A DNA stretch of 64,000 nucleotides from positions 124,001 to 188,000 of the forward strand of contig NZ_CP078089.1 in the NCBI RefSeq assembly GCF_022701195.1, given 5' to 3'. Below the pieces are notes generated by a model. It was given only the letters and a program-made list of their open reading frames with translations, was not told the origin of the DNA and ran no database searches. This stretch comes from Allobaculum mucilyticum. GTDB taxonomy: Bacteria; Bacillota_I; Bacilli_A; Erysipelotrichales; Erysipelotrichaceae. Shown one piece after another: positions 1,957 to 64,000 of this stretch. The position numbers and the translations under genes were made by a program. The number at the start of each line of letters is the position of its first letter. Positions within the stretch are counted from its first letter, which is position 1.

Positions 1957-2463
1957 AACGGACCTCTACTTCCTTCTTGAACCGTTTAATAAGAACGGAC
2001 GAATTGTACAGACAGTAACTGCATTATCGTTTGAATACGACTCTTACCTGTGTCCGAAAGAACAGCCCGCAAAGAGGCGGGAGGAAATGCAGCTGCAGGA
2101 CAGCCTGAAAACAAAGTAAACGGCTGTTCTGTGCGCGCTCTTCTTTTCAATCCAATGAACACAGAAACAGCCCGATTCATAAATCAAATTCGCATCATTC
2201 TAGCAAAATAAAAACCGGACTGTCCACAGTATAAGACTTTGAGCGCAGACTGAGCAAAATACTCCGGTTTCCAGGAGCCGAAGTCTCTAAGACAGTCCAA
2301 AATCTTTCCGGTATCCTGACACTCCGGACACCGCTTTCATTTTATGTAAAGCATAATAAATCGATCCCTCAACTTTATTTCTTCAAAACAGTCTGCATTT
2401 TTCCATCCAGGCTGAGCCCCATCTTTTGCGCTCTGGTACAGGTTCTTTTTTTCTCCTGGTTCA
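1957..2463. other. Intergenic region up to the first IS4 element
   Basis: No convincing gene. The segment holds the upstream region of the CAP gene and, at about 2200-2330, a base-paired segment listed separately. Before the IS4 insertion at 2464 it would have continued directly into the DUF1836 gene at 4193. Confidence 0.5.
2200..2330 (-). ncRNA. Candidate structured small RNA
   Basis: On the minus strand GGACTGTC (2298-2291) pairs with GACAGTCC (2224-2217). Inside this lie a second pairing of AGACTT with AAGTCT and an apical stem CTCC/GGAG. The 3' arm is followed by CCGGTTTTTATTTT, which is terminator-like. Upstream on the same strand is a loose promoter candidate (TTGAGG, about 18 bases, TACATA). 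Paired 5' and 3' ends with a terminal U-tract suit a free-standing small RNA of roughly 120-130 nt. It does not match the 6S, SRP, tmRNA or riboswitch motifs I know. It could equally be a long terminator stem. Confidence 0.3.
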
Positions 2464-2613
2464 CAATGTCATTAAGTTAAGGAGGGATAAAAATCGTATA
2501 CCCTGTTCATGAGCGTTGTCATTTCTTATATTTTGCGTCTCAGGCATGACGAAAAGGATGATTTTCTACCTGTTGAAAAAATCATCCTGATGACTTTTCG
2601 GTTTTCAAATCTG

Positions 2614-3924
2614 TCACTTCTTCTTTCTGGTATCAGCTCTTCCTTCTCTGATCGGAGATATCCTGGCCAGAAGAAGATCTTCCAGTGTACTCAAGCTGAT
2701 TCTGGCTTTTTTGAACAGCCACTGTTGAATCGTTTTGATGATGAATCCGAAATCTGCCTTCTGCTTGTGCTTTTTGGCCTGAGCGATGCGCTTCTGGTGC
2801 TGACGAGATCTTTCTACCTTGTTGCGCAAACGGGAACAAAGATTGTAGAGAGTCATTTTGGCATAGATCTCTGCCTGGACCAGATCAAGCTTCCTTGAAT
2901 GAGTCCATTCAAGATCGGTGTTTCGTTTCAGTCCCCTGAAGCCGACTTCAACCTGCCAGCGCAGACGGTAGATCTGCTTGATGTCCTCGGTCCCAAACTC
3001 AGCTTCCGACAGATTGGTGCAGACGGTAATGAATGATTCATTCCCTTCGCAGGCAGCTTTGAACCTCACAACCCTGATATTTAAAGGGAGTTCAGTCGTT
3101 TGACCGTCAAATTCAGGCTGCTTCCTGTACGAAGAGATGTACTTATAGACATCCCAATGGTCTTTGACATGCCTGTTGTTTTTACTGGTCAGAATCACAT
3201 TGAAAGGAATGTCATACTCTTCTGACTCGGGAGTCTTATAGTACTTGAGAATGCTTGTAGATGATGTCTCGTCTTTGATACGTATGACAAAAGGGACATG
3301 TTCCTTCTGCAGGCGATAGAAAGACATAAGAGCTTCGTATCCCCGATCAGCGATGAAGATGGCTTTCTGAAATGAAGAACGCTGAGCGAGTTCAAGAAGA
3401 GCTGAATCTTCATTCTTCTCAGAGCCGGGTTGAAGCAGCGCGTCAGTAAAGACGGAGTTGAGGGCGTCGAATTCGGCATTCAAATGAACAAAGTGCCTCT
3501 TCTTGCCTTTTTTAGAAGCGCCATAGGTGATGTCATTGTCCTGTTCAGGAAGAACTTGAATCTCGCTTCCATCTACAGCGAGGAGGCGATAACCCTTGAA
3601 GGTTTTAACATCAGAGCTGGAAGTTGCCTTGTTAAACCGATTGAAGACGTTTTTATAAAGTGAAGAGTTGATTTTGGAACGGGCCTGAGACACAGCAGAG
3701 GCTGAAACAGATGATCCGCCCTTAAACAGGATCCAGGGAAAGGAAGCAGCGAGGGATTCCTCTGTCAGCTGAAACGGAAGAAGGACAAGCTCATGCAGGT
3801 CAATCTGCCGCTTACGGGTGAAGGCGGACTGAGAAGTAAAATTGGCAGGGTTCGCCGTTTCTGAGCTGATGATATTGAGGAAGGTGTTTCTGAAGAAAGA
3901 ACATTCTTTGGCGATAGCAGTCAT
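2614..3924 (-). CDS. IS4-family DDE transposase
   Basis: A 436-residue transposase that catalyses cut-and-paste movement of its own element. The DDE triad is visible: D118 in LLAVDGSE, D193 in IADRGYEAL, and the IS4 signature Y(2)R(3)E(6)K as Y319, R322, E326, K333. The frame is intact, so the enzyme is probably active. An identical protein is encoded at 15753-17063. Downstream of the stop is an imperfect hairpin (GGATGATTTT ... AAAATCATCC) that can terminate transcription. Confidence 0.95.
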   Translation of the reverse strand: MTAIAKECSFFRNTFLNIISSETANPANFTSQSAFTRKRQIDLHELVLLPFQLTEESLAASFPWILFKGGSSVSASAVSQARSKINSSLYKNVFNRFNKATSSSDVKTFKGYRLLAVDGSEIQVLPEQDNDITYGASKKGKKRHFVHLNAEFDALNSVFTDALLQPGSEKNEDSALLELAQRSSFQKAIFIADRGYEALMSFYRLQKEHVPFVIRIKDETSSTSILKYYKTPESEEYDIPFNVILTSKNNRHVKDHWDVYKYISSYRKQPEFDGQTTELPLNIRVVRFKAACEGNESFITVCTNLSEAEFGTEDIKQIYRLRWQVEVGFRGLKRNTDLEWTHSRKLDLVQAEIYAKMTLYNLCSRLRNKVERSRQHQKRIAQAKKHKQKADFGFIIKTIQQWLFKKARISLSTLEDLLLARISPIREGRADTRKKK

Positions 3925-4055
3925 AGGGAAAACTCCTTTAAGTTCTCCCCATCGGCTGCGAAGCAGCCGCGCGGCGGCAGAAATTTGTCAATAGATTTTT
4001 AGAAAAAAGTGAAAAAACTCGAATCATTCGAGATTTGACTTGAAGAGTAGAAAAA

Positions 4056-4088
4056 AGACCACATCACTGCTTAACGCTGATGTGGTCT
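4056..4088. terminator. Perfect hairpin at the 5' end of IS4 copy 1
   Basis: AGACCACATCA (4056-4066) and TGATGTGGTCT (4078-4088) form an 11-bp perfect stem with an 11-base loop just inside the IS end, upstream of the transposase. Hairpins here typically block impinging transcription or translation from the host genome. The same hairpin is in the copy at 15564-17213, and a sequence-divergent analogue (CCTCTCCTCC/GGAGGAAAGG) is in copy 2. Confidence 0.6.
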
Positions 4089-4192
4089 GAGAAATCTTAA
4101 CTTAATGACATTGCCTGGTTCATTTGAAACAGCACTGGTGCAAGTTTGAGAGATGCGAAATAACCTTCGCTTTTTTTGATAGAATAAAAGCT

Positions 4193-10339: not shown

Positions 10340-10374
10340 GTTCTTAACCTGCAGTTGTGCAAAGAGAGGATCCT

Positions 10375-10713
10375 ATGACAGAAATCGAAAGTGCCTGCAT
10401 GGAAATCATCGCTTCAAGCGGCAGTGCCAAAACCAGTTTTATCGAAGCCATTCATGCTGCAAGAGACAATCAGTTTGCGCTTGCAGAAGAAAAGATTGCC
10501 GAGGGCGATCTGGCGATGAGCTCTGCACAGAGACCGCATTTTTCTCTGATCGTTCAGGAGGCCTCCAAAGAGGACGTTCCCTTTTCCATGATGCTCATGC
10601 ATGCCGAAGATCAGATGATGGCTGCAGAAGAATTCCGTATTCTGGCGATTGAACTGATCGCTCTTTACCATCAGCTTGACGAACTCCAGCAGAAAAATTC
10701 ATCCCAGTCCTGA
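10375..10713 (+). CDS. Orphan PTS IIA component, lactose/cellobiose type
   Basis: A 112-residue phosphocarrier of the PTS lactose/cellobiose IIA family, which passes phosphate from HPr to a IIB domain. The phosphorylated histidine is H76 in MLMHAEDQMM with the neighbouring D79 of the trimer metal site. The usual HAQDH reads HAEDQ, so the second His is lost. The start is ATG 10375 behind GAGGA; the upstream GTG at 10357 has no such site. No IIB or IIC gene is adjacent. The downstream IS block inserted between this gene and a terminator (21991-22031), so the gene was already an orphan before the insertion. It may phosphorylate a remote transporter or act in regulation. Confidence 0.85.
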   Translation: MTEIESACMEIIASSGSAKTSFIEAIHAARDNQFALAEEKIAEGDLAMSSAQRPHFSLIVQEASKEDVPFSMMLMHAEDQMMAAEEFRILAIELIALYHQLDELQQKNSSQS

Positions 10714-10726
10714 TCATAAATACCGA

Positions 10727-10734
10727 CAATAAAA
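10727..10734 (+). repeat. 8-bp target duplication, left copy
   Basis: CAATAAAA directly abuts the left ISL3 end GGCGCTCT. The identical octamer is at 21985-21992, immediately after the right end of the last ISL3 terminus. Eight bases is the usual duplication length for ISL3-family elements. Confidence 0.8.
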
Positions 10735-12260
10735 GGCGCTCTAAATTTTGTTGAGGTTTTGATACCTACGAGCTTTTCAAAAGCTTGAGGTTTCAAAACC
10801 TCATTTTTGTTTAAAGGGGAACCTGGACTGTCATTACTTTCCCTTGTCTTCTTTCTCGAACGGCTCCAATCTAAAGGCTGGCCGATTCAATACGTACAGG
10901 ACGCGATTTCTGAATCGCTTCCAGTTCGTGTATCCATTCGCGTTGTTCTTGATCTGTTTCACGAGTTTGTTTCGATTTTCGATCATAGAAGAAGTCAGCC
11001 GGTGATCCTTCCTTCGAGCTTTTCCGTTCTTCTTGTCAACGACGTACTCCGTCTTGACGATCTCGAAAGAATTAACGATCTCCCTGAACCAGTTGACTAC
11101 AGTCTGTCCGAATGCGTTAAGTTCCTTAACCTGGGACCGGTTAAGATCTGCGAGAATGACCTGCAGCCGATCGGCGGCATCCACCTTTGTTCCATTTCTA
11201 AAGAACTCGCTCAGGGTATTTCGCATTTCATAGGCTTCCGTAAGATCATCGCTGATACTCAGCAGAAGCTCACGGAGCTCATACTCGTTTAACCACGTCT
11301 TGAAGTGGGCATTGTAGGTGCGTTCACCGTTCGGATCAAATACGTTTACCCAAATATCTTTCTTCTTCGAATATGGATCTGGATTTTTAATCCTCTTTTT
11401 TGCATTGGGCTTAATTCCGAGAAGGTGATTCTGGTGTTTCAGAAGGTAATATTCATCGGACCCTTTCAGGGTGCCTTTCATCGTCCGGATGCGGACCTCA
11501 GTCAGTCGCCTGTTGAATTCCTGCATCACATGGAACCTGTCACAGGCATAGATCGCGTCTGGAAAGAACTTTTTACAGACAACCCTGTAAGTCTCGTACA
11601 TATCCGCTGCAATAAACCGAACTTTTTGTCTCTCTTCCAGCGGGAAACTGCTGAAGAAGTCGATAAGATCCTGCTTTTTCCGGCTGGGAAGCAGATCAAC
11701 AGCGGTCTGTGTGTCGTAGTCCAGAAGCATGCATACATAGACTGAGGTTCCCGACTTAAAGGAATAAGTCTCGTCAAGCTGCAGCACGCGGGGAAGCGTC
11801 GTCGCTTTGGGGATCTGGACATGATCGTCGAAGATGTGCTGAACAGTCGTAGGCGAGAGATTATAGCGCTTGGCAACTGATGTAAATGTTACGGCTGGGT
11901 CTCTCATTTCCTCGAGGACGCATACGACAGTAGAGACCGAGATCCTCTGCTTCTTGAAAACGAAGGGATTAAATTCATACCAGGTACGATTACATACCGG
12001 ACATTTATAGCGGCGGGCATGATAGTTAATCTGACAGCGGCAGTTATGAAGAATTGAATGAGTTATTGTTTTGTCCACGTAGTTACAGACATTCGGATGC
12101 TCATGTCCGCATCTTGGACAGGGTGGATAATCCGGTTTTAAAGTGACGTTGATAATGACTAAATCACCCAGATTGGTAGACGAAAGACTCTCGACGGCGT
12201 TCTGATCTAGTCCATAGAGCTCAAGAACGGAATTTTCGAGAGAAGTTATCGGTACATTAC

Positions 12261-13933
12261 CAATGTCATTAAGTTAGATAAGGTAGGTCCACTCAAACGT
12301 TAAGCTTACATGTGATTTTTGGCGTCCAGATTTCTGTCGAGCACGACGAAAAGGGTGATTATTTACCTGTTTAAAAAAATCACCTGGTGGCTTTCTCGAT
12401 TCTCAGAACTTTTGGTCAGCGCTTCTTTTTGCGCTTATCCGCTCGCCCTGGACGAACGGACTGCGTCTTATGAAGGATCAAATTGATCAGCTTGTCTGCG
12501 GTATAAACTCCGCTGTCCCATAGAAACGCGTGAACCGCAGTGATCAGAAATGCGTAATCTGCCTTCTGTTCCCACTTCCTCTTCATGGCATTTCGGCAGC
12601 GTTCAGCGAATTCCTGACTGTTTTCAACCTTGTTTCTGATCCGGGAATACAGGTTGTAGAGCGTCATTTTCGCGAAGACTTCTCCAATGACCAGTTCCTT
12701 CTTGCGTCCATGCACATCCTTCAGTCCAATCCGCTCTTTGATATCTCGATACGAGAGCTCAATTTGCCAGCGGAGTCGGTAGATTTCACAGAGATCCTCG
12801 GTGGTGAATTCATCAAACGGCAGGTTGGTAAAAAGTGTGATGAAAGACTCAATCCCTTCGCAGACCGTTTTATAGCGTACGACTCTGCCGTGGAGCGGCA
12901 GTTCAGTCACTCCATTCTGGAATTCCGGATGTTTTGAATAGGACGAGATGTATTTGTAGGTTTCCCAGTTTGCCTTGACATGGGAGTTGTTTTTACACGT
13001 CAAAGTCACATCGAATGGAATGTCATATTCTTCAGTATCTGGTGTTGGATAGTGCTTCAGAATACTGGTAGAGGAAGATTCGTCCTTGATTCGGATGACG
13101 AAATGCTTATCGGTCTGATTCAGACGATAGAAAGTCATAAGCGCTTCATAGCCTCTGTCGCAAATGAAGATCGCCTTTTCTCCTTCGTATCGCTGAGCCA
13201 GCTCCAGAAAAGCTGAGTCCTCGTTCTTCTGAGAACCTGGCTGCATCACCAGATCGAGATAAACATGGTTGAGCACGTCATACAGCGGATTCGCAAGGTA
13301 AAAATGGTGCTTGGATCCCTTTTTCGATCCGCCATAGGTAGACATGTCATTCCCATCGGGGCTGACTGATAGTTCAGAACCGTCGACGCTCAATAGTCGC
13401 CATCCATGAAACGTTTTGTCATCCTCCGAAGAGAACAAATCGTTCATGCGATAGAAGACGTGAGAGTAAAGCAAGAACCTGATTTTCTGTCTGCCCTGGG
13501 AAATGGCAGATAAAGAAACGTCGGACAGAGAATCAGGAAGAATGGGAAGAGATCGGTTGATCGAGCGATCTTCCGTCTGGTAGGCCACGGCTGCCAGATC
13601 GACAGCGGAAAGCCTGCGGGAGCGAGAGAAGTCAGAATCCGGGTGGAGCAGATTGTCAGAATTGGATGCTTCTTCTTTGATGAAGCGCTTGAGAGCAGCC
13701 GACTGCAGGTTGCAGAATGTGTTAAGTGAGGGCATAAGATTTTTCCTTTCCGTCACTTAACGGGCCGCGAAGCGGCCGCACGATTTGAGGTATAAAACAA
13801 CCTGATATTCCCGAAAAACCGAATATTACAAACAAATAACCGATATGTTCTGCTAAGAAAAAAGACAAAAGAAAAGAGACCTCTCCTCCAATCAAGGAGG
13901 AAAGGCCTCAATCAACTAAACTTAATGACATTG
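12261..13933 (-). mobile_element. IS4-family insertion sequence, copy 2 (divergent)
   Basis: A 1673-bp element with the same terminal sequence CAATGTCATTAAGTT as copies 1 and 3 but a clearly different interior. It is inserted in the ISL3 copy A transposase gene with the 9-bp duplication GTACATTAC at 12252-12260 and 13934-13942. It has its own 5' hairpin (CCTCTCCTCC/GGAGGAAAGG) and a downstream stem near 12356-12388, mirroring the layout of the other copies. Confidence 0.92.
12416..13756 (-). CDS. IS4-family DDE transposase, second type
   Basis: A 446-residue intact transposase, homologous to but distinct from the one at 2614-3924. The catalytic aspartates lie in LLSVDGSELSV and ICDRGYEAL, and the IS4 signature Y(2)R(3)E(6)K is in YRLRWQIELSYRDIK. 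The shared end sequence with copies 1 and 3 suggests that the two transposase types may act on each other's ends. The C-terminus is strongly basic (RPGRADKRKKKR). Confidence 0.95.
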   Translation of the reverse strand: MTERKNLMPSLNTFCNLQSAALKRFIKEEASNSDNLLHPDSDFSRSRRLSAVDLAAVAYQTEDRSINRSLPILPDSLSDVSLSAISQGRQKIRFLLYSHVFYRMNDLFSSEDDKTFHGWRLLSVDGSELSVSPDGNDMSTYGGSKKGSKHHFYLANPLYDVLNHVYLDLVMQPGSQKNEDSAFLELAQRYEGEKAIFICDRGYEALMTFYRLNQTDKHFVIRIKDESSSTSILKHYPTPDTEEYDIPFDVTLTCKNNSHVKANWETYKYISSYSKHPEFQNGVTELPLHGRVVRYKTVCEGIESFITLFTNLPFDEFTTEDLCEIYRLRWQIELSYRDIKERIGLKDVHGRKKELVIGEVFAKMTLYNLYSRIRNKVENSQEFAERCRNAMKRKWEQKADYAFLITAVHAFLWDSGVYTADKLINLILHKTQSVRPGRADKRKKKR

Positions 13934-14015
13934 GTACATTACGGGTTTCTGCCTTCTTGCGCATAGTCCTTCCTCCTTAGTGATGGCAGATTCTCATAGG
14001 AGGAGAAATGACGCG

Positions 14016-14486
14016 TCACGTTATAGGTTGAAAAATCGAAAAATGCAGAAATCCAGGAGAAATCATCAGGTAAGGACCGATTTTTACTGCGGAACATGTG
14101 AATAGATCGTTGAAAGTGCGCAGTCGTTTAAGAACGGCAGAAAAGCGCTTCTTCATCTGGTTTAGAAAGCGGTAGGCCGTCGATGCATCAACCAGTCCGT
14201 TGGACTGCTTGGAAACTGGCTTTCCACTGTTGTGAAGCTCAATGATTTCAGCAGCGGTGTCGCTGCAGATCTGGAAGCTGGGAATGACGAAAAGCGGCAG
14301 AACACGATGGTTTCTGCCGCAATGAGGGCAATGGACTCGGCGGATAGTAAGGCTTACTACGGTTTGTGCCGATTGGATCTTAACACTTCTGTTGCATGTG
14401 TCATGGCGGTACAGTCGATGTCCGCAATCAGGGCAGACAGGATGACCAGCCATAAAATGATCGTAGTCCTGGTTGTATTCAGACTG
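14016..14486 (-). pseudogene. Truncated ISL3 accessory gene (DUF6431-like), copy A
   Basis: Same protein as the intact 183-residue copy at 63257-63808, but the first 30 or so codons are lost at a deletion that joins the gene to the ISL3 right end near 14486. The zinc-ribbon pairs CPDC and CPHC are retained. It is probably not expressed as a normal protein. Confidence 0.75.
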
Positions 14487-14518
14487 GAGGCGAAAACCTC
14501 AAGAAATTTTAGATTGTC

Positions 14519-15382
14519 TGAAAGTTGTGTTCCCAGACGCTCACTGCACCAGGATATCGGCTCCACTTCTCCTTAAATTAATCGAAAGAGCCCCTGCTTC
14601 TTTAGCGTTCAAAGCACCGTAGACCCTCTTGATATCCTTGCAGAAACCATCTTTTTCTTTGGTCGGAATGTACTTAAGGAAGTAGCGAAGCGGATGAACG
14701 ATGCAGCGCTGTTCAGTAACGTTCGGAAATACAGCCTTAGTGCCGCTTTCAAGCCCGCTTACGCCGTCCATGGACAGGAAAAAATATTTTCTACGCCTCG
14801 TGCCTTCAGTTAGTCAAAGATCTCCATCCAGAGGTGCTTGGATTCGCTCTCGCCAATCCAGATGCCGAGGATATCTTTGCAGCCTTCGGTGCCGTAAGCA
14901 AGAACCACATATACAGCCTGCTCTTTTGCACTGCGATCGGTTTTGACCGATACATAAAGACAGTCGCCAAATCCGAAGAGATAGCACTTCTTCAGGGGCG
15001 ATGTCGCTACTCACCAGCAACGAGATAAACGCGATCTGTGATGTTTGAGATTGTTTCCGTAGATATTGAGAAGCCATAGATGTCCCGGATAATATCGGAG
15101 ATATACGCTGCGACATGCCCTGTCCCTACATACGCAGTATTATGCCCTAGACATCGGAAATATCCCGGCCGGCTTTCGAAACTGCCTGCGGTTTGAATGT
15201 ACTGAGATGGTCGCGAGGAATACGCAGATCCAGCTCTCCCTGGAGCACCTCCTCAAGAACAGAGGTAAAGATTGTCTTGATGAGGTCCGCAGCTTCTTTA
15301 AACGTCTGAGGCTTGTACTCCTTAACGATGGTTGAAGCAATCTGTTCCCGAGGGTAGGTGCAGCTTTAGCTTTACGTGGCAT
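14519..15382 (-). pseudogene. Degraded IS256-family transposase
   Basis: Fragments in several minus-strand frames align in order with IS256/mutator transposases. They are an N-terminal EQIASTIVKEYKP ... LEEVLQGELD stretch from the ATG at 15382, then YISDIIRDIYGFSISTETI, then FGDCLYVSVKTDRSAKEQAVY, then SMDGVSGLESGTKAVFP and TEQRCIVHPLRYFLKY. Stops and frameshifts separate them. The C-terminal part ends exactly at the ISL3 copy A right end, and the remainder is missing on the other side, so ISL3 copy A lies in or replaced this older element. Confidence 0.85.
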
Positions 15383-15563
15383 ATGTGGTCTTCTTGTATA
15401 AATTTGTCAGGCTCAAGCTGATTGTATCAGTCTGAAATCTTGATGGAATTTACAGAAAAGACCTTGCACTCTCGACAACAACGCTATTCGATATTTTTGC
15501 ATATTGAAAAGAACCAGTTATAAATTGCGAAAGCTGAGCAGACTTTATTTCTATCTACAAGCC

Positions 15564-17213
15564 CAATGTCATTAAGTTAAGATTTCTCAGACCACATCAG
15601 CGTTAAGCAGTGATGTGGTCTTTTTTCTACTCTTCAAGTCAAATCTCGAATGATTCGAGTTTTTTCACTTTTTTCTAAAAATCTATTGACAAATTTCTGC
15701 CGCCGCGCGGCTGCTTCGCAGCCGATGGGGAGAACTTAAAGGAGTTTTCCCTATGACTGCTATCGCCAAAGAATGTTCTTTCTTCAGAAACACCTTCCTC
15801 AATATCATCAGCTCAGAAACGGCGAACCCTGCCAATTTTACTTCTCAGTCCGCCTTCACCCGTAAGCGGCAGATTGACCTGCATGAGCTTGTCCTTCTTC
15901 CGTTTCAGCTGACAGAGGAATCCCTCGCTGCTTCCTTTCCCTGGATCCTGTTTAAGGGCGGATCATCTGTTTCAGCCTCTGCTGTGTCTCAGGCCCGTTC
16001 CAAAATCAACTCTTCACTTTATAAAAACGTCTTCAATCGGTTTAACAAGGCAACTTCCAGCTCTGATGTTAAAACCTTCAAGGGTTATCGCCTCCTCGCT
16101 GTAGATGGAAGCGAGATTCAAGTTCTTCCTGAACAGGACAATGACATCACCTATGGCGCTTCTAAAAAAGGCAAGAAGAGGCACTTTGTTCATTTGAATG
16201 CCGAATTCGACGCCCTCAACTCCGTCTTTACTGACGCGCTGCTTCAACCCGGCTCTGAGAAGAATGAAGATTCAGCTCTTCTTGAACTCGCTCAGCGTTC
16301 TTCATTTCAGAAAGCCATCTTCATCGCTGATCGGGGATACGAAGCTCTTATGTCTTTCTATCGCCTGCAGAAGGAACATGTCCCTTTTGTCATACGTATC
16401 AAAGACGAGACATCATCTACAAGCATTCTCAAGTACTATAAGACTCCCGAGTCAGAAGAGTATGACATTCCTTTCAATGTGATTCTGACCAGTAAAAACA
16501 ACAGGCATGTCAAAGACCATTGGGATGTCTATAAGTACATCTCTTCGTACAGGAAGCAGCCTGAATTTGACGGTCAAACGACTGAACTCCCTTTAAATAT
16601 CAGGGTTGTGAGGTTCAAAGCTGCCTGCGAAGGGAATGAATCATTCATTACCGTCTGCACCAATCTGTCGGAAGCTGAGTTTGGGACCGAGGACATCAAG
16701 CAGATCTACCGTCTGCGCTGGCAGGTTGAAGTCGGCTTCAGGGGACTGAAACGAAACACCGATCTTGAATGGACTCATTCAAGGAAGCTTGATCTGGTCC
16801 AGGCAGAGATCTATGCCAAAATGACTCTCTACAATCTTTGTTCCCGTTTGCGCAACAAGGTAGAAAGATCTCGTCAGCACCAGAAGCGCATCGCTCAGGC
16901 CAAAAAGCACAAGCAGAAGGCAGATTTCGGATTCATCATCAAAACGATTCAACAGTGGCTGTTCAAAAAAGCCAGAATCAGCTTGAGTACACTGGAAGAT
17001 CTTCTTCTGGCCAGGATATCTCCGATCAGAGAAGGAAGAGCTGATACCAGAAAGAAGAAGTGACAGATTTGAAAACCGAAAAGTCATCAGGATGATTTTT
17101 TCAACAGGTAGAAAATCATCCTTTTCGTCATGCCTGAGACGCAAAATATAAGAAATGACAACGCTCATGAACAGGGTATACGATTTTTATCCCTCCTTAA
17201 CTTAATGACATTG
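15564..17213 (+). mobile_element. IS4-family insertion sequence, copy 3
   Basis: A 1650-bp element with ends CAATGTCATTAAGTT / AACTTAATGACATTG, flanked by a 10-bp duplication TCTACAAGCC at 15554-15563 and 17214-17223. It encodes the same protein as copy 1 but in opposite orientation. The transposase reads toward the nuclease-helicase gene, whose start is 274 bases past the IS end. Confidence 0.95.
15753..17063 (+). CDS. IS4-family DDE transposase (identical to the 2614-3924 copy)
   Basis: A 436-residue protein identical in sequence to the transposase of copy 1, with the same D118, D193 and Y319/R322/E326/K333 signature. The start ATG 15753 follows AAAGGAG. The identity of the two copies and intact frames argue for ongoing mobility. 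Confidence 0.95.
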   Translation: MTAIAKECSFFRNTFLNIISSETANPANFTSQSAFTRKRQIDLHELVLLPFQLTEESLAASFPWILFKGGSSVSASAVSQARSKINSSLYKNVFNRFNKATSSSDVKTFKGYRLLAVDGSEIQVLPEQDNDITYGASKKGKKRHFVHLNAEFDALNSVFTDALLQPGSEKNEDSALLELAQRSSFQKAIFIADRGYEALMSFYRLQKEHVPFVIRIKDETSSTSILKYYKTPESEEYDIPFNVILTSKNNRHVKDHWDVYKYISSYRKQPEFDGQTTELPLNIRVVRFKAACEGNESFITVCTNLSEAEFGTEDIKQIYRLRWQVEVGFRGLKRNTDLEWTHSRKLDLVQAEIYAKMTLYNLCSRLRNKVERSRQHQKRIAQAKKHKQKADFGFIIKTIQQWLFKKARISLSTLEDLLLARISPIREGRADTRKKK

Positions 17214-17486
17214 TCTACAAGCCTTAAAATATATTGAAAGACAACTTTAGTGATTTGGTGCTTGCTCATATATGAATAAGTGGGCAAGATAAGAGTTGCA
17301 TTAAGTTGCTAAGATACTGTAGTTATCGGTAACAGTTGATCTGGAACAAGTAAAGCACATGTTAGAGAACCGATCTGATTGCTTCTAGAAGATGCTGAAG
17401 TCAGTTTTGAAGAGTTTGAATCATTCATTAGACTCACCATTCCTGTTTTTCAAAGTTTCGAATGCCAATACTAGAGAGGTAATCCT

Positions 17487-19370
17487 ATGCTGATATATCA
17501 GGCTAATAAAGACTCGTTTCTGAAGAGTGTTGCTAATGATACGCTGACAGACCAGATTGATCAGGTTCTCAAAGAGAAAATGAACATAAGAACTGGAGAC
17601 AGCGAGCGGAGATCCTGGCAGAACTCCATGCAGTATATGTTTCATGTATTAAGCAATGATCAAATTCCTTCAGATGCAGGTGTTGCAATTGAGTACAACA
17701 TCCCGCATACCAACAAACGAGTGGATTTTATGATCAGTGGATACGATGAAGCACGAAAACCGAATGTTGTTGTCATAGAACTCAAGCAGTGGGAAAAGGT
17801 CAAAGAAGTGAGAGGGAAAGAAGCCCTTGTTGAAACCTATACTGGTCACGGGTTCAGACAGGTTGTTCATCCGTCTTATCAAGTCTCGTCTTATGTTCAG
17901 GTGATTAAAGACTATAACACGTCGGTTCAGGATCGTTCGATCGGTCTTTATCCTTGTGCATTTCTCCATAATTATCGAATCGAGGATCAGAACTCAGATC
18001 CACTTCTGGCAAGCCAGTACCAGGAATATATAAAGGAAGCTCCGGTTTATTTAAAAGGCCAGGGTGCCTATCTAGCCGAAATGATTCATGAATATATATT
18101 CACCGGCGATGATCAGGAGATCCTAAAAGATATCGATTATGGAAAGATTCGACCCAGTAAATCGTTACAGGATGCTATATCCAGCGTAATGGAAGGAAAT
18201 CAGGAATTCACCATGCTGGATGATCAGAAAGTTGCCTATGAAACAATTTTGCAGGAGTCTGAGGAAGCAAAAGAGAGCGGCCAGAAGCATGTAGTAGTTG
18301 TGAAAGGCGGACCGGGTACTGGAAAATCGGTTATCGCAATAAATTTGCTGGCAAATCTGACGAAAAAAGGACAAGTAGCTCAATACGTCACGAAAACGTC
18401 ATCTCCCCGTCAGGTTTATGCTGCTAAGCTGGCAAAGGGCGGTAAGAAAGTTATGCCCAAAAGCAGATTTGAAGCTTTATTTAAGGGGTCAGGAACTTTC
18501 ATTGATGCTCCTCGCAATTCTGTGGATACGATCCTGTGCGATGAAGCACACCGTCTGAATGAAAAGACCGGTCCATTTCGAAAAGGTGAAAACCAGATCA
18601 AAGAAATAATCAATGCTGCTAAATGCTCTGTATTCTTTCTTGATGAAAATCAGAGGGTTACATTTAGTGATTACGGAAACTTGCAGAGAATTCGAGAATT
18701 TGCTGATCAGGCTGGAGCTTATGTTACTGTTCTTGAACTGAACAGTCAGTTTCGCTGCAATGGCAGCGATGGATACCTTGCCTGGCTGGATAATACGCTG
18801 GAAATCAGAGAAACTGCGAACTTCAATCTTGAAAACATTGACTTTGATATCCGAGTCTTCGACACCCCAGAAGAAGTGTATGAACAGATTCAAAAGCGGA
18901 ATGACGAAAACAATAATTCCAGAATGGTAGCTGGATACTGCTGGGAATGGGATTCCAAACACAGGGATGATCCAAACCAAAGCGATATTGTTATCGGTGA
19001 TTTTCAGATGAGCTGGAACCTGGGTGATTCAATATTTGCTCTTGATAAAGGATCAATTGACCAGGTCGGATGCATTCACACTACTCAGGGACTCGAATTC
19101 GATTATGTTGGAGTAATCATTGGCAATGATATGCGTTATGAAGAAGGGCATGTTGTGACGGACGCTTCAAAACGGGCAAAATCGGATAACTCGTTGAATG
19201 GATATAAAAAGCTTTTAAAAACCGATCCGGAAAAAGCCAAAAAAAAAGCGGATGAAATAATCAAAAACACATATCGCACCCTCATGACCAGAGGAATGAA
19301 AGGCTGCTACATTTACTGCTGTGATGATGAATTGAAAGAGTATTTACGTCTTTCTATTAATGCATACTAA
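17487..19370 (+). CDS. PD-(D/E)XK nuclease fused to Schlafen-type (DUF2075) helicase
   Basis: A 627-residue intact protein starting at ATG 17487 behind AGAGAGGTAA. The N-terminal domain looks like a PD-(D/E)XK nuclease: D80 in KRVDFMISG, then E98-L-K100 at the end of a hydrophobic strand (VVVIELK), and Q132 in SYQ. From about residue 240 comes a P-loop helicase of the Schlafen group 3/DUF2075 type: Walker A GGPGTGKS (274-281), Walker B DEAH (352-355), the FLDENQRV motif and a C-terminal HTTQGLEFDYVGVIIG motif. Proteins of this design often occur in defence islands, and restriction of foreign DNA or RNA is plausible but unproven. The gene is more AT-rich than its neighbours and is flanked by IS elements on both sides, suggesting transfer. 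No methylase or partner gene is adjacent. Confidence 0.85.
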   Translation: MLIYQANKDSFLKSVANDTLTDQIDQVLKEKMNIRTGDSERRSWQNSMQYMFHVLSNDQIPSDAGVAIEYNIPHTNKRVDFMISGYDEARKPNVVVIELKQWEKVKEVRGKEALVETYTGHGFRQVVHPSYQVSSYVQVIKDYNTSVQDRSIGLYPCAFLHNYRIEDQNSDPLLASQYQEYIKEAPVYLKGQGAYLAEMIHEYIFTGDDQEILKDIDYGKIRPSKSLQDAISSVMEGNQEFTMLDDQKVAYETILQESEEAKESGQKHVVVVKGGPGTGKSVIAINLLANLTKKGQVAQYVTKTSSPRQVYAAKLAKGGKKVMPKSRFEALFKGSGTFIDAPRNSVDTILCDEAHRLNEKTGPFRKGENQIKEIINAAKCSVFFLDENQRVTFSDYGNLQRIREFADQAGAYVTVLELNSQFRCNGSDGYLAWLDNTLEIRETANFNLENIDFDIRVFDTPEEVYEQIQKRNDENNNSRMVAGYCWEWDSKHRDDPNQSDIVIGDFQMSWNLGDSIFALDKGSIDQVGCIHTTQGLEFDYVGVIIGNDMRYEEGHVVTDASKRAKSDNSLNGYKKLLKTDPEKAKKKADEIIKNTYRTLMTRGMKGCYIYCCDDELKEYLRLSINAY

Positions 19371-19611
19371 ATTTCACACAGGAATACATGAGAAATCTTC
19401 TGATTGATATAAAATCAGAGAAAATTCCGTATTAAAGTGCAAAATACTGACATTGTGATCACACAGCCAGCGTGGTTGCACTGGCTGGCAATTCGCCAGT
19501 GATTAACAATACTGGCGCTCTAAATTTTGTTGAGGTTTTGATACCTACGAGCTTTTCAAAAGCTTGAGGTTTCAAAACCTCATTTTTGTTTAAAGGGGAA
19601 CCTGACTGTCA

Positions 19612-21054
19612 TTACGTTCCCTTGTCTTCTTTTCTCGAACGGCTCCAATCTAAAGGCTGGCCGATTCAATACGTACAGGACGCGATTTCTGAATCGCTTC
19701 CAGTTCGTGTATCCATTCGCGTTGTTCTTGATCTGTTTCACGAGTTTGTTTCGATTTTCGATCATAGAAGAAGTCAGCCGGTGATCCTTCCTTCGAGCTT
19801 TTCCGTTCTTCTTGTCAACGACGTACTCCGTCTTGACGATCTCGAAAGAATTAACGATCTCCCTGAACCAGTTGACTACAGTCTGTCCGAATGCGTTAAG
19901 TTCCTTAACCTGGGACCGGTTAAGATCTGCGAGAATGACCTGCAGCCGATCGGCGGCATCCGCCTTTGTTCCATTTCTAAAGAACTCGCTCAGGGTATTT
20001 CGCATTTCATAGGCTTCCGTAAGATCATCGCTGATACTCAGCAGAAGCTCACGGAGCTCATACTCGTTTAACCACGTCTTGAAGTGGGCATTGCAGGTGC
20101 GTTCGCCGTTCGGATCAAATACGTTTACCCAAATATCTTTCTTCTTCGAATATGGATCTGGATTTTTAATCCTCTTTTTGCATTGGGCTTAATTCCGAGA
20201 AGGTGATTCTGGTGTTTCAGAAGGTAATATTCATCGGACCCTTTCAGGGTGCCTTTCATCGTCCGGATGCGGACCTCGGTCAGTCGCCTGTTGAATTCCT
20301 GCATCACATGGAACCTGTCACAGGCATAGATCGCGTCTGGAAAGAACATTTTACAGACAACCCTGTAAGTCTCGTACATATCCGCTGCAATAAACCGAAC
20401 TTTTTGTCTCTCTTCCAGCGGGAAACTGCTGAAGAAGTCGATAAGATCCTGCTTTTCCGGCTGGGAAGCAGATCAACAGCGGTCTGCGTGTCGTAGTCCA
20501 GAAGCATGCATACATAGACTGAGGTTCCCGACTTAAAGGAATAAGTCTCGTCAAGCTGCAGCACGCGGGGAAGCGTCGTCGCTTTGGGGATCTGGACATG
20601 ATCGTCGAAGATGTGCTGAACAGTCGCAGGCGAGATTATAGCGCTTGGCAACTGATGTAAATGTTACGGCTGGGTCTCTCATTTCCTCGAGGACGCATAC
20701 GACAGTAGAGACCGAGATCCTCTGCTTGAAAACGAAGGGATTAAATTCATACCAGGTACGATTACATACCGGACATTTATAGCGGCGGGCATGATAGTTA
20801 ATCTGACAGCGGCAGTTATGAAGAATTGAATGAGTTATTGTTTCGTCCACGTAGTTACAGACATTCGGATGCTCATGTCCGCATCTTGGACAGGGTGGAT
20901 AATCCGGTTTTAAAGTGACGTTGATAATGACTAAATCACCCAGATTGGTAGACGAAAGACTCTCGACGGCGTTCTGATCTAGTCCATAGAGCTCAAGAAC
21001 GGAATTTTCGAGAGAAGTTATCGGTACATTACGGGTTTCTGCCTTCTTGCGCAT
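19612..21054 (-). pseudogene. ISL3-family transposase, copy B, multiply frameshifted
   Basis: The gene starts at ATG 21054 and reads the normal N-terminus with both CxxC pairs. Compared with copies A and C it then has a 3-base deletion near 20728, a 2-base deletion near 20634, single-base losses near 20456 and 20179 and a single-base gain near 19630. The frame is therefore broken at least four times and the product cannot be active. Confidence 0.88.
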
Positions 21055-21105
21055 AGTCCTTCCTCCTTAGTGATGGCAGATTCTCATAGGAGGAGAAATG
21101 ACGCG

Positions 21106-21653
21106 TCACGTTATAGGTTGAAAAATCGAAAAATGCAGAAATCCAGGAGAAATCATCAGATAAGGACCGATTTTTACTGCGGAACATGTGAATAGATCGT
21201 TGAAAGTGCGCAGTCGTTTAAGAACGGCAGAAAAGCGCTTCTTCATCTGGTTTAGAAAGCGGTAGGCCGTCGATGCATCAACCAGTCCGTTGGACTGCTT
21301 GGAAACTGGCTTTCCACTGTTGTGAAGCTGAATGATTTCAGCAGCGGTGTCGCTGCAGATCTGGAAGCTGAATGACGAAAGCGGCAGAACACGATGGGTT
21401 CTGCCGCAATGTGGGCAATGGACTCGGTGGATAGTGAGGCTTACTACGGTTTGTGCCGATTGGATCTTAACACTTCGGTTGCATGTGTCATGGCGGTACA
21501 GCCGATGTCCGCAATCAGGGCAGACAGGATGACCAGCCATAAAATGATCGTAGTCCTGGTTGTATTCAGACTGAAGGTGATGTTGGATAGCAGTCGGATC
21601 CGAATCTGTATTCTTAAGGAGATCGTTGTTAAGGGATGTCCGATTGTTATCAT
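21106..21653 (-). pseudogene. ISL3 accessory gene (DUF6431-like), copy B, frameshifted
   Basis: The start codon and MITIGHPL are present at 21653, but one G is missing relative to the copy at 63808 (GGG instead of GGGG near 21634), shifting the frame after eight codons. The body from 21540 to 21106 remains open with its CPDC and CPHC pairs, and a small in-frame change alters LPLFVIPSFQ to LPLSSFSFQ. Confidence 0.8.
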
Positions 21654-21671
21654 ATAGATGCCTTTCTGGGC

Positions 21672-21716
21672 AGGACGAAACCTTTGAGTGGCCAACTTCA
21701 AATGGGGTTTCGTCCT
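21672..21716 (+). terminator. Terminator inside the ISL3 right end, copy B
   Basis: AGGACGAAACC (21672-21682) pairs with GGTTTCGTCCT (21706-21716), followed by TTTTTTT. It reads toward the IS end on the plus strand, so it may stop read-through across the element. The same structure is at 63827-63872. Confidence 0.7.
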
Positions 21717-21811
21717 TTTTTACGCTTTGTTACTCCTAACTGTATTTCGTGCGGAAAGCTCTTTCAATACCCATAAGTCTCAGAGAGGCGAAAACCTCAA
21801 GAAAATGGATA

Positions 21812-21887
21812 GGGGGAGGTGTCAGCTTCCAGGGGGCATGGTCCGAGCTATGTCTAATGCCCCCCCTTCAGCTGACACCTCCCCCCC
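21812..21887. repeat. GC-rich double-stem palindrome at an ISL3 end
   Basis: An outer perfect 16-bp stem GGGGGAGGTGTCAGCT (21812-21827) / AGCTGACACCTCCCCC (21870-21885) encloses an inner 8-bp stem GGGGGCAT (21832-21839) / ATGCCCCC (21857-21864) with a 17-base loop. The composition is unlike the surrounding AT-rich IS sequence. It resembles REP/BIME or MITE-type palindromes. I saw no second copy in this window. Confidence 0.7.
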
Positions 21888-21959
21888 AGCCTCACGAAGC
21901 TTTAAAGGTCGCCTTAGTCTTTTGAGGTTCACACCTCAGAAAACTTTATAGGCCTGTGC

Positions 21960-21984
21960 CCACCTCAAGAAATTTTAGATTGTC
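21960..21984. repeat. Outer ISL3 right terminus of the nested block
   Basis: ACCTCAAGAAATTTTAGATTGTC matches the right end of copy A (14512-14518 region) better than the inner end near 21811 does. It abuts the octamer CAATAAAA that also flanks the left end at 10735. Confidence 0.7.
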
Positions 21985-21992
21985 CAATAAAA
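21985..21992 (+). repeat. 8-bp target duplication, right copy
   Basis: CAATAAAA, identical to 10727-10734, directly after the ISL3 right terminus. It partly overlaps the terminator that follows. Confidence 0.8.
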
Positions 21993-22031
21993 TCCGGATT
22001 CTGCCTCATATATCGTTGCAGGATCCGGATT
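21991..22031 (-). terminator. Terminator of the exonuclease gene, originally shared with PTS IIA
   Basis: AATCCGGATTCTGCC and GCAGGATCCGGATT form a long imperfect stem. On the minus strand it is followed by TTATTG after the U-rich arm; on the plus strand by ATTTG. It lies 17 bases after the exonuclease stop. Without the IS block it would also lie about 20 bases after the PTS IIA stop, so it was probably a bidirectional terminator for two convergent genes. Confidence 0.75.
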
Positions 22032-43686: not shown

Positions 43687-43703
43687 AACGGGTTCAACCC
43701 GTT
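43687..43703 (+). terminator. Terminator of the spx-like gene
   Basis: AACGGGTT/AACCCGTT short stem followed by TCTTTTTTAT, 12 bases after the stop codon. Confidence 0.75.
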
Positions 43704-61574: not shown

Positions 61575-61754
61575 TTTTCCATTTTGATGGCCAGATTGCA
61601 GGCTCTCCTGCCGCATAAGGAGAACACGTTCTGAATAACGAACACTTTTTTTTCGGGCGCTCTAAATTTTGTTGAGGTTTTGATACCTACGAGCTTTTCA
61701 AAAGCTTGAGGTTTCAAAACCTCATTTTTGTTTAAAGGGGAACCTGGACTGTCA

Positions 61755-63205
61755 TTACGTTCCCTTGTCTTCTTTCTCGAACGGCTCCAATCTAAAGGCT
61801 GGCCGATTCAATACGTACAGGACGCGATTTCTGAATCGCTTCCAGTTCGTGTATCCATTCGCGTTGTTCTTGATCTGTTTCACGAGTTTGTTTCGATTTT
61901 CGATCATAGAAGAAGTCAGCCGGTGATCCTTTCTTCGAGCTTTTCCGTTCTTCTTGTCAACGACGTACTCCGTCTTGACGATCTCGAAAGAATTAACGAT
62001 CTCCCTGAACCAGTTGACTACAGTCTGTCCGAATGCGTTAAGTTCCTTAACCTGGGACCGGTTAAGATCTGCGAGAATGACTGCAGCCGATCGGCGGCAT
62101 CCGCCTTTGTTCCATTTCTAAAGAACTCGCTCAGGGTATTTCGCATTTCATAGGCTTCCGTAAGATCATCGCTGATACTCAGCAGAAGCTCACGGAGCTC
62201 ATACTCGTTTAACCACGTCTTGAAGTGGGCATTGTAGGTGCGTTCACCGTTCGGATCAAATACGTTTACCCAAATATCTTTCTTCTTCTTCGAATATGGA
62301 TCTGGATTTTTAATCCTCTTTTTTGCATTGGGCTTAATTCCGAGAAGGTGATTCTGGTGTTTCAGAAGGTAATATTCATCGGACCCTTTCAGGGTGCCTT
62401 TCATCGTCCGGATGCGGACCTCAGTCAGTCGCCTGTTGAATTCCTGCATCACATGGAACCTGTCACAGGCATAGATCGCGTCTGGAAAGAACTTTTTACA
62501 GACAACCCTGTAAGTCTCGTACATATCCGCTGCAATAAACCGAACTTTTTGTCTCTCTTCCAGCGGGAAACTGCTGAAGAAGTCGATAAGATCCTGCTTT
62601 TTCCGGCTGGGAAGCAGATCAACAGCGGTCTGCGTGTCGTAGTCCAGAAGCATGCATACATAGACTGAGGTTCCCGACTTAAAGGAATAAGTCTCGTCAA
62701 GCTGCAGCACGCGGGGAAGCGTCGTCGCTTTGGGGATCTGGACATGATCGTCGAAGATGTGCTGAACAGTCGTAGGCGAGAGATTATAGCGCTTGGCAAC
62801 TGATGTAAATGTTACGGCTGGGTCTCTCATTTCCTCGAGGACGCATACGACAGTAGAGACCGAGATCCTCTGCTTCTTGAAAACGAAGGGATTAAATTCA
62901 TACCAGGTACGATTACATACCGGACATTTATAGCGGCGGGCATGATAGTTAATCTGACAGCGGCAGTTATGAAGAATTGAATGAGTTATTGTTTTGTCCA
63001 CGTAGTTACAGACATTCGGATGCTCATGTCCGCATCTTGGACAGGGTGGATAATCCGGTTTTAAAGTGACGTTGATAATGACTAAATCACCCAGATTGGT
63101 AGACGAAAGACTCTCGACGGCGTTCTGATCTAGTCCATAGAGCTCAAGAACGGAATTTTCGAGAGAAGTTATCGGTACATTACGGGTTTCTGCCTTCTTG
63201 CGCAT
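61755..63205 (-). pseudogene. ISL3-family transposase, copy C, single frameshift
   Basis: The gene starts at ATG 63205 behind AAGGAGGAAGG. The N-terminal zinc ribbon (C55, C58, C94, C97), helix-turn-helix and DDE core (D170 in LQLDETYSF, D227 in IAADMYET) are intact. Near 62080 one C is missing compared with copies A and B (ATGACTGCAG versus ATGACCTGCAG), which ends the frame after 395 residues with a foreign C-terminus. The normal C-terminal part continues in the other frame to 61755. Confidence 0.88.
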
Positions 63206-63256
63206 AGTCCTTCCTCCTTAGTGATGGCAGATTCTCATAGGAGGAGAAATGACGCG

Positions 63257-63808
63257 TCACGTTATAGGTTGAAAAATCGAAAAATGCAGAAATCCAGGAG
63301 AAATCATCAGGTAAGGACCGATTTTTACTGCGGAACATGTGAATAGATCGTTGAAAGTGCGCAGTCGTTTAAGAACGGCAGAAAAGCGCTTCTTCATCTG
63401 GTTTAGAAAGCGGTAGGCCGTCGATGCATCAACCAGTCCGTTGGACTGCTTGGAAACTGGCTTTCCACTGTTGTGAAGCTGAATGATTTCAGCAGCGGTG
63501 TCGCTGCAGATCTGGAAGCTGGGAATGACGAAAAGCGGCAGAACACGATGGGTTCTGCCGCAATGTGGGCAATGGACTCGGTGGATAGTGAGGCTTACTA
63601 CGGTTTGTGCCGATTGGATCTTAACACTTCGGTTGCATGTGTCATGGCGGTACAGCCGATGTCCGCAATCAGGGCAGACAGGATGACCAGCCATAAAATG
63701 ATCGTAGTCCTGGTTGTATTCAGACTGAAGGTGATGTTGGATAGCAGTCGGATCCGAATCTGTATTCTTAAGGAGATCGTTGTTAAGGGGATGTCCGATT
63801 GTTATCAT
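63257..63808 (-). CDS. ISL3 accessory zinc-ribbon protein (DUF6431-like)
   Basis: A 183-residue protein carried in the ISL3 element upstream of the transposase. It has two CxxC pairs (C45/C48 and C80/C83) around VVSLTIHRVHCPHCGRTHRVLP, which resembles the DUF6431 family often found beside transposases, and a helical C-terminal half. It may bind IS ends or assist transposition (inference). It is the only intact copy of three; copies A and B are truncated or frameshifted. The start has AGAAAGG seven bases upstream. Confidence 0.75.
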   Translation of the reverse strand: MITIGHPLNNDLLKNTDSDPTAIQHHLQSEYNQDYDHFMAGHPVCPDCGHRLYRHDTCNRSVKIQSAQTVVSLTIHRVHCPHCGRTHRVLPLFVIPSFQICSDTAAEIIQLHNSGKPVSKQSNGLVDASTAYRFLNQMKKRFSAVLKRLRTFNDLFTCSAVKIGPYLMISPGFLHFSIFQPIT

Positions 63809-63826
63809 ATAGATGCCTTTCTGGGC

Positions 63827-63872
63827 AGGACGAAACCTTTTGAGTGGCCAACTTCAAATGGGGTTTCGTCCT
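63827..63872 (+). terminator. Terminator inside the ISL3 right end, copy C
   Basis: AGGACGAAACC and GGTTTCGTCCT, 11-bp stem, followed by TTTTTTTAC on the plus strand. Same as 21672-21716 in copy B. Confidence 0.7.
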
Positions 63873-64000
63873 TTTTTTACGCTTTGTTACTCCTAACTGT
63901 ATTTCGTGCGGAAAGCTCTTTCAATACCCATAAGTCTCAGAGAGGCGAAAACCTCAAGAAATTTATAGACTGTCTTTTTTTGCCAACTATTGCCCCGTAT

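Follow-up and report, generated by a model that had tools for sequence, protein, structure and literature searches.

Composite transposons carry a target duplication at their outer ends only. Classical examples (Tn9, Tn10 and Tn4001) are named in the available text of PMC9484755, which describes directly oriented ISL3-family elements around liaSR in Enterococcus faecium as a putative pseudo-compound transposon, with 61 ISL3 copies per isolate and the same liaSR neighbourhood in the complete isolates queried. In that text such structures are said to be undescribed for ISL3 to its authors' knowledge, homologous recombination is judged more plausible than transposition, and target duplications are still to be examined. 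The accessible part of PMC6350997 reports, for one end of a 210-kb region, two ISL3-type transposase genes next to an IS2-like transposase. Here, a block bounded by two copies of an ISL3-type insertion sequence (IS) and carrying a nuclease-helicase gene was analysed in a 64-kb stretch of the Allobaculum mucilyticum genome (genome positions 124001-188000, hereafter the window); this genome is a single contig of 3.14 Mb with a completeness of 92.5%. The interval from 10735 to 21984 of the window is probably an ISL3-family composite transposon that moved its cargo in one step.

The outer junctions of the block read CAATAAAA followed by GGCGCTCTAAATTTTGTTGAGG at the left end and ACCTCAAGAAATTTTAGATTGTC followed by CAATAAAA at the right end. 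An earlier note on this DNA had placed the octamer directly against an ISL3 left end at 10735 and an ISL3 right end at 21984, and these coordinates proved exact to the base, as did the direct orientation of the two ISL3 copies (Table 1). On the + strand of the window CAATAAAA occurs twice, at the two outer ends only, and on the - strand three times. Inside the block, copy 1 is followed by TGAAAGTT (from 14519) and copy 2 is preceded by ACAATACT (to 19513), so neither ISL3 copy has a repeat of its own. The arrangement matches that of a composite transposon: the cargo lies between two copies of one IS, and the target duplication stands at the outer ends only, with unmatched flanks inside.

The ISL3 element is about 2.49 kb long and encodes a transposase of 482-483 amino acids and a small DUF6431 protein. 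An 8-bp target duplication is typical of the ISL3 family. The 414-amino-acid part of the transposase in copy 1 matched PF01610 (E 8.9e-40) and NF033550 (192.8 bits, cut-off 180), and the terminal inverted repeats are imperfect, with 18 of the 23 terminal bases alike between the left end and the reverse-complemented right end. Sixteen of the 25 two-ended copies in the genome have a perfect 8-bp repeat of their own and one has a match at seven of eight positions, so this element as a rule duplicates 8 bp; the eight copies that have no repeat include both window copies. The whole left 1525 bp of the element was matched by at least 26 copies in the genome (IS copy numbers given here are lower bounds, the best 40 of 52-118 first-look candidates having been scored). 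An intact transposase frame of at least 480 amino acids was present in 15 of 26 other ISL3 copies or pieces examined, copy 1 being excluded. The transposase gene of copy 1 is split by an IS4-family element and that of copy 2 is frameshifted, so movement of the block now would need transposase from other copies. The ISL3 left end was found within three mismatches in four of 272 family genomes, one of them the window's own, and therefore no close relative has a large number of copies of the element. One genome of another genus in the same family has seven such places. Matches to the ISL3 transposase in plasmids came to 2182 records, every one below 60% identity.

The octamers at ISL3 ends were then compared across the genome. 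Thirty-four left ends and 27 right ends, hand-picked from an end search, were listed with their 8-mers. Right-end matches with four to five errors at 43692, 44151 and 220393 and a left-end match with five errors at 1367652 were dropped, as were matches with four to five errors in which a left end had been taken for a right end, or the reverse, on the opposite strand, or which fell within inner right-end sequence. For the copies at 525280 and 1738483 the outer partial left end was used; the inner left end would give no repeat. Seven same-strand left-to-right pairs made up of ends from different copies lay within 20 kb, and four of these crossing pairs had perfectly matching octamers (CAATAAAA, AATTTATT, AAAATAGG and CTGAAAAG), compared with two matches among all 886 other left/right pairs, both of them AAAAAAAG. 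The two copies with a partial left end each carry an extra 17-18 bp of it inside the target repeat, which might reflect transposition of a unit whose left end was doubled.

A second block of 17 kb, at genome positions 1179102-1196120, also consists of two directly oriented ISL3 copies and has the outer repeat AAAATAGG. Its cargo is a type I restriction-modification operon with hsdR, hsdS, a gene for a XerA-like tyrosine recombinase and hsdM; the hsdR product (1029 amino acids) scored 997 bits to the type I restriction enzyme model, and hsdM is interrupted by a further transposase gene. In one of the ISL3 copies the final 126 bp of the inner right end are missing. The block starts at the 3' end of a 5S ribosomal RNA (rRNA) gene, and the flank beyond its right end has 15 other matches in the genome. 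Contexts were examined for 11 of these: in nine, a 5S gene continues across one AAAATAGG to the same terminator; one lacks this arrangement, and for the last the stretch was too short. Rfam models identified 23S and 5S genes in nine of the 10 paralogous loci scanned. Since paralogous rRNA operons carry a single AAAATAGG, the outer flanks of the second block were once continuous, and the net event was an insertion of 17 kb with an 8-bp duplication. The rRNA-operon terminator also has a copy at 2278443 that begins at AAAATAGG but is not preceded by a 5S gene, which we read as another rearrangement at this site.

A composite origin of the window block would involve the following steps. Two direct copies of one ISL3-type element would have come to flank the nuclease-helicase gene at some donor site, the left copy sitting inside an IS256. 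ISL3 transposase would have used the outer left end of copy 1 together with the outer right end of copy 2, and the block would have entered as a whole between a phosphotransferase system (PTS) IIA gene and the terminator of that gene, with duplication of CAATAAAA. After that, an IS4 element would have split the transposase gene of copy 1 and insertions and deletions would have broken that of copy 2. The earlier note had expected the whole interval to have entered as one ISL3-type unit. This is the best-supported reading, given the lack of inner repeats and a second block with the same outer signature and with empty sites in the same genome, although its preference for a single transposition over homologous recombination is a matter of likelihood. 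The further suggestion of a composite transposon that moves a defence gene fared similarly: the composite structure is probable, both transposase genes are broken, and the defence role is putative.

Stepwise insertion of two ISL3 copies, each with its own octamer, was ruled out by the differing inner flanks, and the sign by which the earlier note would have recognized it, one copy with an octamer duplication of its own, was not seen at either window copy. The main rival is that a single ISL3 inserted at CAATAAAA and a circle with the cargo and another ISL3 later joined it by homologous recombination, the outer repeat then stemming from the first insertion; this resembles the translocatable units of IS26, with the difference that host recombination would do the joining. 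The genome offers at least 26 ISL3 copies as targets, and homologous recombination is the explanation held more plausible for the Enterococcus block in the available text of PMC9484755. Copy 1, compared with the consensus of five young copies, is near-identical in its left part (two events in 1528 bp) and more divergent to the right (eight in the next 552 bp). A single crossover of a resident ISL3 with a cargo circle would, however, leave two copies that are reciprocal halves, and copy 2 differs from the young consensus by 27 events spread over positions 91-2435. Counted by substitutions only, copy 2 shares most with the copy c1973 on both sides (five of nine left, two of three right) and so does not look like a mixture of two lineages, and copy 1 shares two of two left and six of 11 right with c2317, two other copies sharing seven of 11 on the right; all these numbers are small. 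With gap columns counted, the right part of copy 2 was closest to copy 1 (five of 13, compared with four for c1973 and two others), but the large deletion in copy 1 can inflate gap-column sharing, hence the recount. In the second block one copy is young over its kept 2362 bp (two events) and the other has 31 events, all of them beyond its first 500 bp; a crossover there would have to sit close to the left end. No sign of a clean reciprocal chimera of two copies was seen, mosaicism among the copies keeping this short of exclusion. The divergence pattern agrees better with two distinct copies having moved together than with a single crossover, and the small numbers and visible mosaicism leave recombination as a possible, if clearly less probable, account.

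An assembly error, in which reads through the repeated ISL3 were joined wrongly and the cargo was put inside a simple ISL3 insertion, is unlikely. The 2.5-kb element in at least 26 copies, a single-contig genome of incomplete content, and the many 1-bp insertions and deletions in copy 2, such as noisy reads would give, speak for it; yet copies 1 and 2 are distinct from each other and from the other aligned copies (the IS4 element inside, the deletion, nine private variants in the left part of copy 2) and so separable by an assembler, and crossing repeats occur at three other places. Still less credible is a coincidence of two unrelated ISL3 insertions, which the A/T-rich target sites and the existence of chance matches would favour; it is opposed by the restriction of CAATAAAA on the + strand to the two block ends, by the lack of an own repeat in both copies, and by three other neighbouring pairs that also match, and the pair counts disfavour a chance match of the octamers. 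Several observations weigh against one-step composite transposition itself. The pair statistics were made after the pattern had been noticed, and five of the eight repeat-less two-ended copies take part in no crossing pair, so repeats are also lost in other ways. Alignment shows the ISL3 copies to be mosaics, and exchange between copies is therefore common; copy 1 itself changes character between its left and right parts. The earlier note had proposed looking for the empty site in related genomes, and none was found in four other genomes of the genus, three of which are 58-67% complete. In a flank search of five same-genus genomes the flanks of the window block matched their own genome; the one further hit was partial, to 45 bp of a gene in another of the five. 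Nor was there a second copy of the window block, the cargo having a single match in its own genome. ISL3 composite transposition is proposed here on the strength of sequence comparison.

The two remaining crossing pairs are of mixed content. The interval 2711428-2721983 contains a left piece of ISL3, an ISL3 in inverted orientation, remnants of ISs and a fragment of a type II methyltransferase (229 bits) that ends in a 126-bp ISL3 right end. The interval 485777-498632 holds phage genes (portal, protease, capsid and tail) bordered on one side by a 52-bp palindrome of the ISL3 left end and on the other by 135 bp of a right end; its 8-bp repeat is perfect. Both may be single ISL3 insertions that were later invaded, and they were left out of the composite count. 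All four joined sites lie at or beside a predicted terminator-like hairpin, the rRNA case before one. Eleven of 13 single-copy control ISL3 sites also fold at least 4 kcal/mol below the shuffled mean (lower of the two strands), and the hairpin location is therefore a target preference and no mark of composites. At 1973256-1984337 two direct ISL3 copies, both lacking repeats, surround a 1766-amino-acid frame that by inspection is beta-galactosidase-like; this is possibly a decayed or rearranged block. In three partial ISL3 copies (near 498498, 2721858 and 1193759) the break falls at an identical position, TCTAA/TGCC, within a hairpin close to the right end; in a fourth (near 2712343) it falls at another place in that hairpin. 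A fragile site, microhomology joining and a recombination site were considered for the shared break. One of the three junctions looks like microhomology with what we take to be a methyltransferase motif, which would make end joining at a fragile hairpin simpler than a recombination site.

Table 1 The block, its components and its insertion site, in positions of the 64-kb window
Feature	Position	Strand	Remarks
PTS IIA (lactose/cellobiose) gene	10357..10713	+	At the insertion site
Left copy of 8-bp target duplication	10727..10734	+	CAATAAAA
ISL3 copy 1	10735..14518	-	Left end 10735, right end 14518; transposase on - strand, interrupted by IS4; deletion near right end
IS4-family element within ISL3 copy 1	12261..13933	-	9-bp repeat GTACATTAC
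IS256-type remnant	14519..15475	-	Cut by right end of ISL3 copy 1
Second IS4-family element	15564..17213	+	Different from the first; 10-bp repeat TCTACAAGCC
Cargo gene	17487..19370	+	627 amino acids; PD-(D/E)xK nuclease and Schlafen-group-3 (DUF2075) helicase, motifs intact
ISL3 copy 2	19514..21984	-	Direct orientation to copy 1; transposase gene frameshifted
Right copy of 8-bp target duplication	21985..21992	+	CAATAAAA
Terminator-like hairpin	21991..22031		The block stands between the IIA gene and this hairpin

The components of the block are collected in Table 1. The claim that the block splits the IIA gene from what looks like its own terminator was borne out: the strong hairpin beside the right octamer has a folding energy of -23.1 kcal/mol (z score -5.8). 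An IS256 remnant and one cargo gene are present as described earlier. Two IS4-family elements are also present; their transposases are 52.6% identical, so that these are two different elements and not two copies of one. The uninterrupted counterpart of the IS4 site in ISL3 copy 1 is seen in copy 2. Elsewhere in the genome the second IS4 element recurs in at least 40 near-identical copies, one of them at 2463-4113 of the window, a recent burst. A relative of the IS256 remnant elsewhere in the genome is 88% identical to it and runs on past the break at 14519. A third ISL3 copy in the window (61656-63974) is shortened near its right end and has a repeat matching at seven of eight positions.

The cargo protein scored 353 bits to the Pfam SLFN-g3_helicase model. 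In an alignment of 33 sequences the residues E69, D80, E98 and K100, the Walker A stretch 274-280, and D352, E353 and H355 were invariant, and these motif residues are therefore intact in the window protein; the first four appear by inspection to form a PD-(D/E)xK pattern. The predicted structure (pLDDT 83.7; predicted template modelling score, pTM, 0.86) matched superfamily 1 (SF1) helicases in Foldseek at low TM-score; the best hit was the helicase DSH9 (E 1e-9), and the matches included Dna2 (E 1.9e-9) and human SLFN14 (E 1.1e-7). A sequence search of solved structures returned only three RecA chains, at the ATP-binding region. The guanine-plus-cytosine (GC) content of the gene is 41.6%, and 40.3% at third codon positions (GC3), compared with a GC3 of 50-56% in four neighbouring genes; this difference, like the single match of the cargo in the genome, counts in favour of the composite reading. 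Homologues were found in 32 of 145 family genomes. Phage records gave four protein matches at 24-45% identity, and plasmids gave nine DNA records with a query coverage of at most 18%. The PADLOC models Nhi (E 4e-16), AbiO (E 9e-16) and PDC-S41 (E 1e-16) matched weakly and partially, at 55.6-58 bits. The role of the cargo in defence is putative.

Among 87 distinct relatives with 600 bp or more on either side, 56 have a MazG-like gene within 300 bp of the nuclease-helicase gene and 31 do not; the 87 loci exclude the window itself and two loci duplicated in the set, with which the count is 56 of 90. All 56 MazG-like genes are on the same strand as the nuclease-helicase gene, upstream or downstream of it and often overlapping it by a few bases, and PF12643 was found in all four of the neighbours tested. 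A tblastn search of the window with a single query yielded no MazG-like gene (best E 5.7), and the sole PF12643 match of the genome, at 2096061, has no helicase in the surrounding 3.2 kb.

In our assessment the window block belongs to an ordinary class of element, being a probable composite transposon, while its IS family is unusual and its own genome documents it uncommonly well, with restriction- or defence-type cargo in two blocks. With four crossing repeats and an in-genome empty-site control for one block, ISL3 composite transposition becomes directly testable, and the blocks suggest a route by which single defence genes may travel without plasmids or phages. A wider proposal, advanced speculatively, is that a high-copy ISL3 repeatedly packages defence operons as composites that land at or beside terminators (the MazG-less nuclease-helicase, the operon for type I restriction-modification and what is left of a type II methyltransferase block), and that the nuclease-helicase and its usual MazG-like partner form an undescribed two-gene anti-phage system. 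The pair is widespread and worth a phage assay. Among the matches listed from the open-access literature, a scope that leaves out most subscription journals and bioRxiv preprints, there was neither an ISL3 composite with defence cargo nor a MazG and nuclease-helicase pair.

The cargo differs from the described proteins that it resembles. Nhi and AbiO match it weakly over the helicase part and PDC-S41 matches best over residues 4-294, whereas Pfam places it in SLFN-g3_helicase; Dna2 and SLFN14 gave TM-scores of 0.20-0.33 with the cargo model at 11-13% identity. With Tn9, Tn10 and Tn4001 the window block shares two IS copies with cargo between them; it differs in its ISL3 family, in that no drug resistance gene was seen, and in that its mobility is putative. 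The closest likeness is to the E. faecium liaSR block, with which it shares two direct ISL3-family elements around host genes in ISL3-rich genomes. Direct ISL3-bounded blocks were thus proposed before, in the available text of PMC9484755 without target-duplication evidence, whereas the window block has perfect outer 8-bp repeats and cargo of restriction or defence type, and for its sister block the genome itself shows empty sites.

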